A model generated the notes under the pieces. That model made no database searches. It was not told the DNA's origin and saw nothing but the letters and a program-made list of their open reading frames with translations. Both the position numbers and the translations under genes were made by a program. Below are positions 23,412 through 27,884 of a stretch of DNA of 64,000 bases, piece after piece (the stretch's first letter is position 1; every line of letters starts with the position of its first letter). Where the stretch lies: contig CALUSL010000005.1 in NCBI GenBank assembly GCA_944323425.1, positions 1-64,000 on the forward strand. The letters are read 5' to 3'. The DNA comes from Candidatus Gastranaerophilales bacterium. GTDB lineage: Bacteria; Cyanobacteriota; Vampirovibrionia; Gastranaerophilales; Gastranaerophilaceae.

Positions 23412-26400
23412 ATGTTATTAACAGGGTCATCAAGAACAAAAAGGTCTGAAATTCTGGCTGAAAAATATATTGAGCTGGTTCAAAACGGTATTCCCGCACC
23501 GCAGATTCTTGTTCTTGTCGCAAACAGACATAAAAAACAACTTTTTACCGAAAGAATTAAGCAAGCGCTTCCGGTGCTGGAAAATCCGAAAATCTATACA
23601 TTTTTCGGACTTGTTTATAATACTATTAAACTTGACTGGCCTGATATAGAAAACAGGATTACATCGGGGAATGCTTGTATTATCCCGAATCTTACGGGGC
23701 TTGAGATTTCTCAGTTTTTATTTAAAAAGTGTATGAAAAATGCAGGATTTCTCGACTACAACTCGAAAATTAATCTTCTGCATCAGCTTTTCAGACGCTA
23801 TTCGCTTATTGTCCAGAACAATCTTTCTGATGAGGATGTTAAAGAGCGTTCAATGCTTCTAAAAGAAAGTTTTGCAGAGGATGCGAAAAATGCAATTGAT
23901 TCTTTTAAACGCCTGACTCTAAAGTATCGTGCATTTGATTATATCAGACAGTGTGCGATATTCGGTAGTATCAAGGAAAAGTCATCGTTTTTGAAAAATA
24001 TAAAATATCTTATAGTAGACGATGCTGATGAGATTACGAATGCAGAGTTCAATTTTCTGAAATTCTTAAAACCGTCACTGGATGGCTGGTGCGTCGGTAT
24101 GGATGAATATGGCGTGTCCAGAGCGGGATTTCTATGCGGTGATTTTTCCATGCCGGACAGAGTAAAAGAGCTTTTCTGCGATGAAATAATAAAACTGGAT
24201 GATATGCCGGTTTCGTCCGTAAAAGTTTCTCATATTGCCTACTCAAAATATATTGAGATGATAAAAAGTGCGTTTGAGCAGGCAGCTGATTTAGTAAACA
24301 AAAACGGACTTCACGCGCAGGATATTTCAATAGCCGTTCCTGAAACAAACAGCGCCGTAAAATTTTTCGCATCTGAAATTTTTAATTCAAAAAAAATTAA
24401 GTACCAAATATTCTCTGGAAGTGAAAAACTTGCGCAAAACAGAATTGTCAAAAATATTCTTACAGTTTTGAAACTTGCGCATCCTGATTTCTGCGACAAG
24501 ATTTCACCTCTGGAATTGAGGGGAGTTTTGCATTCAATTCTCGGTGTTCCGCTAAAAGATACGATGCCTGTGCTCTCAGCTTTTAGAACCTGTGGGATAC
24601 TGAAACCTGTATTTGAAAACGAAGTCTACAATACTTCTCTTGAAGCTTTATGTGCTGTTATAAAAAAGCTGCAAGAAGAAAATATGCCGCTATCAGTGCA
24701 GGCTGAGACTATATTTGATGAACTGGTGAATACTGAAGATACCGTCATTGTAAACAAAGTGAACTTTTTGATAAAACAGATTCGCGATTTTGAAACTGTT
24801 TTTGAAGAAGACGCACTCGATGTAAACTTTCAGCGCGATATTATAATACAGTTGGAAAATACGATTGTGTCAGAAAATCCGTCTGATTCACCTGTTGTTG
24901 AGCCTGATTCGCTTTGTATTGCAACTGCACAGAAATTGATTGATTTGAACATAAAATCCAGATATCAATTCTGGATTGATATTTCCGGCGAGGGCTGGAC
25001 ACGGGAGGATACCGGCACAATTTACAACTCCTGGGTCTTTCAGCCGTTCTGGAAAAAAGATTCATTTACTTTTGAGGATAATTTTGAACTATCACACGAA
25101 AAAACAAAACGTGTCCTTCGCAAGCTTTCTCTTCTTTCTGATGAAAAGATTTATGCATATTCCTCGCTGTTTGATATAAACGGGCTTGAAAATACAGGCG
25201 GAATTCTTGATTTTCTGGATTTTGAACGTGAGGAAAAAACGGAGCGCGCTTCTTTTAACTTTGTTCCAAGAGATGACCAGAAACCTGTGCTGGCTTATAA
25301 CGGAGGAAAGCTGGCTGTTTCTGCCGTCCCCGGGGCCGGCAAGACGACTATTCTTCTTGCGCTGGTTATAAAGCTCATCAGACAAGGGGTAAATCCTGAA
25401 AACATTTTTGTGCTGACTTATATGGATTCTGCTGCCAGAAATTTCAAAGAACGAATAAAAGATGTTTGTCCTGACAGTGATTCGCTTCCGAATATTTCAA
25501 CAATCCACGGGCTTGCACTTCGAATTTTAAAAGAAAATTCAAATTTTACGAAAATCGGACTCAGCTCTGATTTTGATGTTTGCGACGACAATGAACGGCA
25601 ACGGATATTAAGAGAGGCTATAACTTTTCTTGGCTTAAATCATGACGATTATGACCGTTTTGAAAAAGCAATTTCTGCACTGAAACTCTCCGGCGCAAAA
25701 AAACTTATTCAACCGAAATTTAAGGAAATAAAAGACTTTTTGTCTCTTTTTAAAATTTATAATGCTTCACTAAAAGCCCGCAATATGATTGACTATGATG
25801 ATATGCTGAGACTTGCGGTTGTGCTTCTTGAAAAAAATTCTGATATAAGAGCGCATTATCAAAAGATTTGCCGCTATATTATAGAAGATGAGGCGCAGGA
25901 TTCTTCAAAGGTGCAGCAAAATCTTTTGAATATACTCTCCGGTGTGCACGGAAATCTCATACGCTGCGGGGATATAAATCAGTCTATTACTACGACTTTT
26001 ACTAATGCTGACATGCAGGGGTTCCGTGATTTTGTGGAAAAAAATCCGTGCGTAAAAATGGAATGTTCGCAGCGATGTGCAAAGGACATATATGCTCTTG
26101 CGAACAGGCTTGTTACGGAGACGCAAAACTTTTCTGATGTAGCCGGTGCTTTTTATCAAACCCTTATGAAGCCTGTTGAAGGAAAAAATCCGGTTTCTGT
26201 AAATGCTGTAGAAACAGAGATTTTTGACGACTTTAATGATGAGCGTGCATACATAATATCTAAAATCAGAGAAATTTATAAGAAGGACAAAAATGCGGAT
26301 GTCGCAATTCTTTTAAGAAGCAATTTTCAGATAGAAGAGTATTCACGCTTTCTTGCAAATTCAGGTTTTGATGTGGTTACCCGTTCTGACAGTCTTGACA

Positions 26401-27212
26401 GACAGCCTGCGTTTCGGCTTATTCTGGGACTTTTAAAATTTGTACATTCGCCCTGGGACAATTCCAATGTCCTTAATATTATAGATATACTCATAGAACA
26501 GCGGCTTTTACGGCTTGGGCGCAATGACAGATGTTTTGTTGAAACATTGAAAAAGCCTTTTATTTCATCAGACTCTGATTCTTTTGAGTCAGAGGCACTT
26601 ACACAGCTCCACTGGGATTTGAACTACTGGCTGGAGTCATCGGAGCTTAGTGCGGACGAGTTTGCAATAAAGGCGGGCATGTATTATTACAACTCTGATA
26701 TTGAAATTTCAAACGTTTATATGATTTCAATTTTTATTAAAAAATTGTCTAATCAGTATAAGCATGAACTTGTTGAGAAGCTTGAAGAACTCTCGAAAAG
26801 AGCTGCATCCGGCAGGTTTAAATTTTTCGGAAATGAAAACGAAAAATCTTATGATGAGAGAGGCAAAATTATGCTTATGACCTATCATAAATCTAAAGGT
26901 GACGAATTCGATTACGTATTTATCCCGCAGCTAACAGAGGACGTTTTACCTATGAGGGCGGAAAATGTTAAGGTCAAGGCACAGGAAAGATTTATGGAAA
27001 GCATAAAAGCGCTGAATTCGGAGTATACTAAAAAAAACGAACAAGAACTAAAAAAGAACATACTCGAAGAAAACATGAGACTGCTTTATGTCGCAATTAC
27101 GAGAGCAAAACGCGGCCTTTATATAACCTGTGCCGGCAAGTATAAAAAATTCTCAAAAATTAAAGAAACGAAACCGTCTGCTTTTTTTGATATTACACCG
27201 GTGTTGAGATAA
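23412..27212 (+). CDS. AddB/AddA-like fused double SF1 helicase
   Basis: This 1266-residue protein holds two UvrD-like modules. The first (about 1-580) begins LLTGSSRTKR where a Walker A would be, with LIVDDADE instead of DExQD: an inactive helicase as in AddB. The second (about 615-1266) has every motif: SAVPGAGKTT (K644), TYMDSAARNFKERI, STIHGLAL, EDEAQD (825-830), CGDINQSI, TYHKSKGDEFDYVF and LLYVAITRAK (1224-1233). It therefore looks like AddB and AddA cores fused in one chain without their nuclease domains. The nuclease follows 12 bases downstream as a separate gene. Likely role: double-strand-break end processing for RecA. Translation probably starts leaderless at 23412. Confidence 0.8.
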   Translation: MLLTGSSRTKRSEILAEKYIELVQNGIPAPQILVLVANRHKKQLFTERIKQALPVLENPKIYTFFGLVYNTIKLDWPDIENRITSGNACIIPNLTGLEISQFLFKKCMKNAGFLDYNSKINLLHQLFRRYSLIVQNNLSDEDVKERSMLLKESFAEDAKNAIDSFKRLTLKYRAFDYIRQCAIFGSIKEKSSFLKNIKYLIVDDADEITNAEFNFLKFLKPSLDGWCVGMDEYGVSRAGFLCGDFSMPDRVKELFCDEIIKLDDMPVSSVKVSHIAYSKYIEMIKSAFEQAADLVNKNGLHAQDISIAVPETNSAVKFFASEIFNSKKIKYQIFSGSEKLAQNRIVKNILTVLKLAHPDFCDKISPLELRGVLHSILGVPLKDTMPVLSAFRTCGILKPVFENEVYNTSLEALCAVIKKLQEENMPLSVQAETIFDELVNTEDTVIVNKVNFLIKQIRDFETVFEEDALDVNFQRDIIIQLENTIVSENPSDSPVVEPDSLCIATAQKLIDLNIKSRYQFWIDISGEGWTREDTGTIYNSWVFQPFWKKDSFTFEDNFELSHEKTKRVLRKLSLLSDEKIYAYSSLFDINGLENTGGILDFLDFEREEKTERASFNFVPRDDQKPVLAYNGGKLAVSAVPGAGKTTILLALVIKLIRQGVNPENIFVLTYMDSAARNFKERIKDVCPDSDSLPNISTIHGLALRILKENSNFTKIGLSSDFDVCDDNERQRILREAITFLGLNHDDYDRFEKAISALKLSGAKKLIQPKFKEIKDFLSLFKIYNASLKARNMIDYDDMLRLAVVLLEKNSDIRAHYQKICRYIIEDEAQDSSKVQQNLLNILSGVHGNLIRCGDINQSITTTFTNADMQGFRDFVEKNPCVKMECSQRCAKDIYALANRLVTETQNFSDVAGAFYQTLMKPVEGKNPVSVNAVETEIFDDFNDERAYIISKIREIYKKDKNADVAILLRSNFQIEEYSRFLANSGFDVVTRSDSLDRQPAFRLILGLLKFVHSPWDNSNVLNIIDILIEQRLLRLGRNDRCFVETLKKPFISSDSDSFESEALTQLHWDLNYWLESSELSADEFAIKAGMYYYNSDIEISNVYMISIFIKKLSNQYKHELVEKLEELSKRAASGRFKFFGNENEKSYDERGKIMLMTYHKSKGDEFDYVFIPQLTEDVLPMRAENVKVKAQERFMESIKALNSEYTKKNEQELKKNILEENMRLLYVAITRAKRGLYITCAGKYKKFSKIKETKPSAFFDITPVLR

Positions 27213-27224
27213 AAGGAGAAGTTT

Positions 27225-27884
27225 GTGGAAAAGACATACACTATAAATATGCTGAAAACTTTTGAGGATTGCCCTCAAAGATACAAATTTATGTATGTGG
27301 ATAATTTGAGATTTCCGGAGCAAAAATCTTCGAAAACAGACACCGGCGTGAAAATACACTCTCTGATTAATTACTATCTCAACGGAAAAGATGTATCGAA
27401 AATGGTTGTACAGCTTGATAAAAGCGACAAGCTCCTTTGGCACAATTTTTTGAATTCTCCTGTTTTAAAATATCATTTTCTGGAGAGCGAATATGCTTTT
27501 GACGTAAAATTCGGTGCCAGCAGGCTTACAGGCAGAATAGATGCGCTTTTTGAGTCAGAGGGTGAATATATTATTGTGGACTGGAAAACCGGTGAAATTT
27601 CCGATGAAAATGAACGTTTTCAAACAATGTTCTACCTCTGTTCGCTTTATGAGGTATACAAACAGAAACATGTGCCCGTGACTTATGATTCTTTTTCTCT
27701 CAGATATGTGCTTTTAAACACAGGGACGAACATACGCATAGCTTTTAGCGAAGAACTTTTTATGCAATATAGAAATAAAATTCTCGGACTTATTGACAAA
27801 ATAGAAAACGGCGAAAACTATTTTTGCTACAAGAGTGCAAAATGTAAGAATTGCAAATATTTGAAACTGTGTCCGTATTTGTAA
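27225..27884 (+). CDS. RecB/Cas4/AddB-like PD-(D/E)XK nuclease with Fe-S cysteines
   Basis: This 219-residue nuclease has H45, GRID (D106), VDWK (D119, K121) and Q133-x3-Y, the PD-(D/E)XK order of RecB-family nucleases. Cysteine C16 and C207-x2-C210-x5-C216 match the four cysteines of the 4Fe-4S cluster in AddB and Cas4. It starts at GTG 27225, 8 bases after AAGGAG, directly behind the fused helicase. The pair reads as a split AddAB-like end-resection complex. With no cas genes in sight, a Cas4 role is unlikely. Confidence 0.85.
   Translation: MEKTYTINMLKTFEDCPQRYKFMYVDNLRFPEQKSSKTDTGVKIHSLINYYLNGKDVSKMVVQLDKSDKLLWHNFLNSPVLKYHFLESEYAFDVKFGASRLTGRIDALFESEGEYIIVDWKTGEISDENERFQTMFYLCSLYEVYKQKHVPVTYDSFSLRYVLLNTGTNIRIAFSEELFMQYRNKILGLIDKIENGENYFCYKSAKCKNCKYLKLCPYL

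Follow-up and report, generated by a model that had tools for sequence, protein, structure and literature searches.

Results and discussion

A fused helicase gene and its companion nuclease gene

The window (the whole stretch of DNA that was analysed, 64,000 nucleotides) carries on its forward strand a gene for a protein with two helicase-like halves and, immediately downstream, a small gene for a stand-alone nuclease. The features of the locus are listed below.

23412-27212, forward strand: fused helicase gene (1266 aa), N-terminal degenerate SF1A helicase plus C-terminal active UvrD-type helicase
23412-25247, forward strand: N-half, aa 1-612, AddB-like SF1A helicase fold with degenerate ATPase motifs (AF2, Foldseek, profile A2)
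23424-23447, forward strand: degenerate Walker A of the N-half, aa 5-12, GSSRTKRS (motif alignment with relatives)
24018-24032, forward strand: remnant motif II of the N-half, aa 203-207, DDADE
25248-27209, forward strand: C-half, aa 613-1266, UvrD/Rep/AddA-type helicase with intact motifs and without nuclease domain
25323-25349, forward strand: intact Walker A of the C-half, aa 638-646, AVPGAGKTT
25884-25901, forward strand: intact motif II of the C-half, aa 825-830, EDEAQD
27099-27110, forward strand: motif VI of the C-half with its arginine, aa 1230-1233, TRAK
27213-27218, forward strand: Shine-Dalgarno-like AAGGAG immediately 3' of the helicase stop codon (putative coupling signal)
27225-27884, forward strand: stand-alone PD-(D/E)XK nuclease (RecB/Cas4/AddB-type), GTG start, 219 aa
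27270-27272, forward strand: Cys16 of the nuclease, first predicted Fe-S ligand
27843-27872, forward strand: Cys207, Cys210 and Cys216 of the nuclease, the other predicted Fe-S ligands

The TAA of the helicase gene and the GTG of the nuclease gene are separated by exactly 12 bases (AAGGAGAAGTTT), which include the AAGGAG. Since this ribosome-binding-site-like stretch lies right behind the helicase stop codon, the two proteins are probably translated from a single message, and the nuclease appears to be translationally coupled to the fused helicase. The flanking genes, as read from the sequence within the window, are of housekeeping type (gatA-like, asparaginase-like, aspS, NUDIX and leuC). No conserved gene neighbourhood was found when the loci of relatives were searched; the helicase-nuclease pair alone is kept, and its conservation side by side in most of the order excludes a chance pairing. 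An earlier sequence-only reading had described one chain with two helicase halves and no nuclease domains, followed 12 bases later by a 219-residue nuclease with C16, C207, C210 and C216; the open reading frame and the Pfam analysis agree with the former, and every element of the latter is present.

The C-half is an intact UvrD-type helicase

Pfam analysis assigned aa 622-1241 to the UvrD helicase domain PF00580 (4e-49), and the motifs of the C-half are all intact (638-AVPGAGKTT, 825-EDEAQD, 1156-MTYHKSKGDEFD and 1226-YVAITRAK). In the NCBIfam scan the PcrA and Rep models gave the best scores, about 192 bits and well short of their curated cut-offs, and the curated AddA models reached 110.7 bits against a cut-off of 707.65. 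Pfam and NCBIfam scans of the 1266-aa protein detected no fused nuclease domain in either half, and the chain stops just past motif VI, which argues for the same conclusion. In a maximum-likelihood tree, 22 helicases taken from all forms of the system described below grouped together with 100/100 support, to the exclusion of PcrA, Rep, the contig-1 AddA-like protein and the UvrD-nuclease fusions; PcrA and Rep are both encoded elsewhere in the window genome. A phage origin was also considered, as PHROG 1967 was the best-scoring family for the helicase half, and was rejected: the phage matches were restricted to the helicase half, at about 25% identity, and the N-half family had no match among the phage records searched.

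The N-half is a decayed SF1A helicase

Residues 1-612 of the window protein had no Pfam match. The N-half of one relative (L057), however, scored against PF00580 at 8.5e-8 over residues 2-248, and eight of 62 same-order rows retain an intact Walker A in the N-half (e.g. IEGPLKSGKTS) in place of the GSSRTKRS of the window protein. Foldseek matched an AF2 model of this N-half of the window protein (pLDDT 70.5, pTM 0.70) to UvrD at E 7.5e-14 and also to AddB, AdnB and RecC; the highest TM-scores were those to AddB (4cei_B) and AdnB (9np6_B), both 0.58, and that to RecC was 0.52. Searching the N-half profile against PDB sequences gave nothing significant, so that fold comparison alone yielded matches. 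Taken together, the Walker A of relatives, the PF00580 match of L057 and the AF2/Foldseek fold identify the N-half as a decayed helicase, that is, an SF1A helicase fold which has lost its ATPase motifs. The structure prediction which the sequence-only reading had proposed as a check thus settled the fold class of the N-half, whereas the AF2 model of aa 1-1200 (pTM 0.37) leaves the packing of the two halves unreliable.

That reading had also called the N-half AddB-like. The curated AddB models of NCBIfam did not match it, and in profile-profile comparison the N-half profile resembled the AddB-like protein encoded in the genome no more than it resembled SF1A helicases generally; the term therefore holds for fold and layout but not for family membership. 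The strongest profile match of the N-half was to the C-half family, which hints at an origin by duplication of that family, a conclusion that we do not draw because the compared alignments are unequal in depth.

The fused helicase of three relatives (L063:4962-9701, L064:3585-8039 and L065:4739-9181) contains an in-frame insertion of about 190-320 aa at an identical site, corresponding to window aa ~260-275, and split matches resembling it were seen in five further genomes (G259, G206, G271, G122 and G194). By reading, the insertion resembles a DUF559/Vsr-type endonuclease domain and is flanked by repeated palindrome-like coding peptides (LTPPPSPLPQGAGECAR and PPIACGDFPLKGGRN); it appears to be an in-frame mobile cassette that has landed in one site of a core gene.

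The stand-alone nuclease

The 219-aa protein matched PDDEXK_1 in Pfam at 9e-23 and the NCBIfam Cas4 model TIGR00372 at 56.3 bits, under the curated cas4 cut-off of 65. Nine residues (G41, H45, E89, R104, D106, D119, K121, Q133 and Y137) are invariant in 23 nuclease relatives, most of which also share C16, C207, C210 and C216. One subclade (L061, L062 and L077) has lost the four Fe-S-type cysteines together with the C-terminal segment and keeps the catalytic residues. The nuclease has a gene of its own in the window, as it does in the other forms that were examined, and in many genera it was the only PDDEXK_1 protein found. At E 1e-12, nine genomes of family f1 have the fused helicase without the nuclease, eight of them in genus g44; in these g44 genomes, G226 (L076) among them, the fused helicase is kept with no adjacent or detectable nuclease, which has either diverged or been lost.

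Gene arrangements within and beyond the order

Four profiles were used: A2, the N-half alignment including three deep-phylum proteins; A3, the helicase; A4, the nuclease; and A5, a divergent N-half-family alignment. The fused protein is full-length or nearly so in almost all Gastranaerophilales relatives, and the nuclease adjoins it in most loci examined. Four deep-phylum loci (L067, L133, L134 and L135) hold an operon of helicase-like gene, helicase gene and nuclease gene in this same order. The large-genome members examined (3-6 Mb), which would be oxygenic cyanobacteria, have three unlinked genes encoding proteins of about 700, 770-870 and 262-301 aa. Outside the phylum, plasmid pSR56 of Salinibacter ruber carries in a row SRM_RS00110 (hypothetical), SRM_RS00115 (helicase), SRM_RS00120 (nuclease) and recJ, the first three matching profiles A5, A3 and A4 at 307, 374 and 106 bits, respectively, and a homologue of the N-half stands alone in Ilyobacter (A2, 223 bits). 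The parts are thus separate genes elsewhere, and fusion is not the essence of the system. We consider it likely that a three-part machine is widespread in Cyanobacteriota and that the window pair is its Gastranaerophilales form.

The state of the N-half differs among these forms. Both the Walker A and the motif VI arginine are gone from the N-half in the window's family. The homologue in the unlinked form keeps the Walker A GK[ST] and, in most rows, the motif VI arginine (e.g. LLSRVSEKVYL), and with both retained it may function as another motor in the putatively oxygenic members. A fusion with an intact N-terminal Walker A occurs in another order of the class (L136).

Phyletic pattern and RecC

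Profile A2 matched in 317 of the 386 genomes of the phylum. With A2 taken at E ~1e-11 or better and the A4 nuclease at 1e-12, the helicase-like part and the nuclease occur together in 297 of the 386 genomes, the former alone in 14, the latter alone in 3, and neither in 72; Fisher p values for the phyletic contrasts serve description only, as they ignore shared ancestry. RecC (PF04257) was detected in 62 of the 386 genomes, of which 57 belong to one family without either part and five hold both parts. The genomes of the RecC-carrying family measure 1.6-3.7 Mb, and its size and gene content fit marine Prochlorococcus/Synechococcus, which have been reported to carry recBCD, Synechocystis 6803 and Nostoc 7120 being without recB and recC (PMC5101192). 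Most of this anti-correlation with RecC comes from a single clade and thus reflects few independent events. The window genome itself had no PF04257 match.

Other helicase-nuclease genes

The sequence-only reading had suggested searching the genome for a separate AddAB. A second AddAB-like pair does exist on contig 1 of the window genome (L010:5521-10921, at about 155520-160920), but it is patchy, with homologues in only 13 of 59 relatives. It comprises a 956-aa AddB-like helicase with a C-terminal Fe-S-type PDDEXK nuclease and an overlapping gene for an 849-aa AddA-like helicase; Walker A is intact in both subunits, and the AddA-like subunit is without the nuclease domain that its homologues in some genera keep. 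In some relatives the homologous pair is complete, with two nucleases and subunits of about 1000 and 1150 aa.

Three genomes of the same order (G011, G313 and G145) are without the fused protein and carry a UvrD-nuclease fusion of 1019-1032 aa. These UvrD-PDDEXK fusions (L198:5423-8512, L199:5288-8383 and L200:5186-8242) have a C-terminal cysteine cluster, and it is possible that they replace the fused helicase; other genomes of the order carry both. At the end of contig 26 (L007:158-3552) an OLD-like gene (ATPase plus TOPRIM, by reading) lies beside a gene for a 649-aa UvrD helicase, a pair resembling the GajA/GajB defence pair of Gabija.

A candidate DNA-end resection machine

Most bacteria process broken DNA ends via RecBCD, AddAB or AdnAB. 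The reading that we favour, and hold to be probable, is that the pair forms an AddAB-like machine for DNA-end resection whose nuclease is detachable, both the complex and its activity being deduced from the comparisons above; the resection role is supported by the distribution and by the recJ-linked operon in another phylum (Salinibacter). The pair probably trims broken or foreign DNA ends in bacteria that are mostly without RecBCD. In the proposed mechanism, the helicase and nuclease proteins would assemble on a DNA double-strand end, and the C-half motor would move 3'-5' along one strand, unwinding the duplex. The nuclease is of AddB/Cas4 type, and Fe-S nucleases of this type are expected to act on the 5' strand, so that the 5'-ended strand is its predicted target; it would dock in trans and cut that strand as it emerges. 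The N-half would serve as a non-motor scaffold with a single-strand channel and might also cause pausing or sense sequence, by analogy with AddB and RecC, whose inactivated helicase domains provide the channel for the strand and scan for Chi (PMC4824097). The remaining 3' tail would be passed to RecA, perhaps with the help of RecJ, a plausible helper since its gene adjoins the Salinibacter operon and given the RecJcy phenotype described in Synechococcus elongatus (PMC10653904). Linear or foreign DNA entering the cell would be degraded by this activity as well.

Such degradation could also be the whole function, in which case the pair would be not a repair enzyme but a defence helicase-nuclease, comparable to UvrD-Cas4 fusions and Gabija-type systems and directed at the DNA of phages or plasmids. 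The nuclease is Cas4-like (TIGR00372, 56 bits), one three-gene form is plasmid-borne (pSR56), UvrD-Cas4 fusions are located in defence loci (PMC5704561), and S. elongatus without its Cas4-like nuclease or UvrD maintains RSF1010 better (PMC10653904). We nevertheless regard a pure defence role as unlikely: the pair is near-universal in a whole order rather than patchy, its immediate neighbours are of housekeeping type in a neighbourhood that is not conserved, its parts lie at separate loci in those large-genome members that were examined, the N-half family is on none of the phage records searched, the PADLOC matches are generic UvrD and Cas4 cross-matches, and RecBCD and AddAB degrade foreign DNA too. 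Somewhat less likely again is a Rep- or Dna2-like enzyme of replication forks and gaps, which would remodel forks and trim flaps and for which double-strand ends would not be the main substrate. The C-half does score best against the PcrA and Rep models (192 bits) and the nuclease shares its broad class with those of Dna2 and Cas4, but the helicase clade is distinct from PcrA and Rep, which the genome also encodes, end-processing complexes typically include a partner whose ATPase motifs have decayed (AddB, RecC), and the distribution mirrors the absence of RecBCD.

Nor do we give much weight to the idea that the window pair is a redundant backup to the 956 + 849 aa pair of contig 1 as the main double-strand-break enzyme, the least probable of these alternatives. 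The intact Walker A of both contig-1 subunits, their fused Fe-S-type nuclease and the full two-nuclease version in some relatives would suit a main enzyme; against this, homologues of the contig-1 pair are present in 13 of 59 relatives and those of the window pair in nearly all, and many genera have the window-type nuclease alone.

Returning to the resection machine, its wider reach can be stated more tentatively. The odds appear nearly even that it is an overlooked phylum-wide double-strand-end resection enzyme, modular in build (AddB-like fold, UvrD-type motor and detachable Fe-S nuclease), with parts that are unlinked, operonic (with recJ in Salinibacter) or fused, with a partner that, according to the lineage, is either motor-dead or probably a second motor, and with RecBCD having replaced the machine in the picocyanobacterial lineage. 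Plausibly, then, the three-part machine is the overlooked RecBCD/AddAB counterpart of Cyanobacteriota. Model cyanobacteria have been reported to be without recBCD (PMC5101192), and "still-unknown presynaptic mechanisms" were predicted for bacteria without such genes (PMC1193525); there is a real chance that the three-part system is the missing cyanobacterial end-processing enzyme. If so, that enzyme has been present in genomes as three separate annotations ('hypothetical', 'UvrD/ATP-dependent helicase' and 'Cas4-like/PD-(D/E)XK nuclease'), and it would be relevant to cyanobacterial DNA repair, natural transformation and genome engineering. The occurrence of intact and decayed ATPase motifs in close relatives also bears on the evolution of motor-dead helicase partners.

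Comparison with known systems

The sequence-only reading had spoken of an undescribed resection complex and had allowed for membership in a known plasmid or defence family. No AddAB, AdnAB, RecBCD, phage or defence family fits; the fusion stressed in that reading is not essential, the parts being separate elsewhere. AddAB (RexAB) of Firmicutes and Proteobacteria is similar in combining an active SF1A helicase, a decayed helicase-fold partner and an Fe-S-type PD-(D/E)XK nuclease, and probably also in resecting DNA ends. It differs in that here both helicase halves form one chain, neither has a nuclease, a single small nuclease is separate, and curated AddA and AddB models give no above-cut-off match. 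The C-half is, like AddA, an active SF1A helicase with all motifs, but is without the fused C-terminal nuclease; the N-half has, like AddB, an N-terminal helicase fold without most ATPase motifs, but AddB models do not recognise it, it resembles AddB no more closely than it does SF1A helicases of other kinds, and no C-terminal Fe-S nuclease is fused to it. By analogy the system probably works like AddAB, of which it is not a member by defining features.

Mycobacterial AdnAB likewise has two helicase-fold units (N-half TM 0.58 to AdnB), and the putatively oxygenic separate form may resemble it in having two motors; AdnA and AdnB, however, each have a fused nuclease, whereas here there is one stand-alone nuclease, no pair of helicase-nuclease subunits and, in the window, one motor. 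RecBCD shares the combination of an active helicase and an inactive helicase fold (N-half model TM 0.52 to RecC), but the window genome has no RecC homologue and its nuclease is unfused; in Cyanobacteriota, RecBCD and the three-part system are largely exclusive.

Among defence-related systems, the helicase falls outside the clade of the UvrD-PDDEXK fusions of the same order (100/100) and the nuclease below the curated cut-off for CRISPR Cas4. PADLOC gave no GajA match in the neighbouring nuclease, which is PDDEXK_1, and its GajB matches for the helicase were rejected as generic UvrD matches. The UvrD plus Cas4-like operons of Clostridiales and the UvrD-Cas4 fusions also place a UvrD-family helicase beside a pfam12705 nuclease (PMC5704561), whereas here a third, helicase-like component is conserved; for the unfused Clostridiales operon the authors suggested a role in repair (PMC5704561).

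Genes of S. elongatus offer a further comparison. Its Cas4-like nuclease and UvrD are probable orthologues of two of the parts, and the passages of PMC10653904 on the Cas4-like nuclease, UvrD and RecJcy make no mention of an AddB-like third part. Both RSF1010 maintenance and natural transformation increase when the Cas4-like nuclease, the non-PcrA UvrD or RecJcy is lost (PMC10653904; also PMC7125226, which names Cas4 and Argonaute, for Cas4), and this common mutant phenotype, orthology being presumed, is as expected of one DNA-end-degrading pathway.
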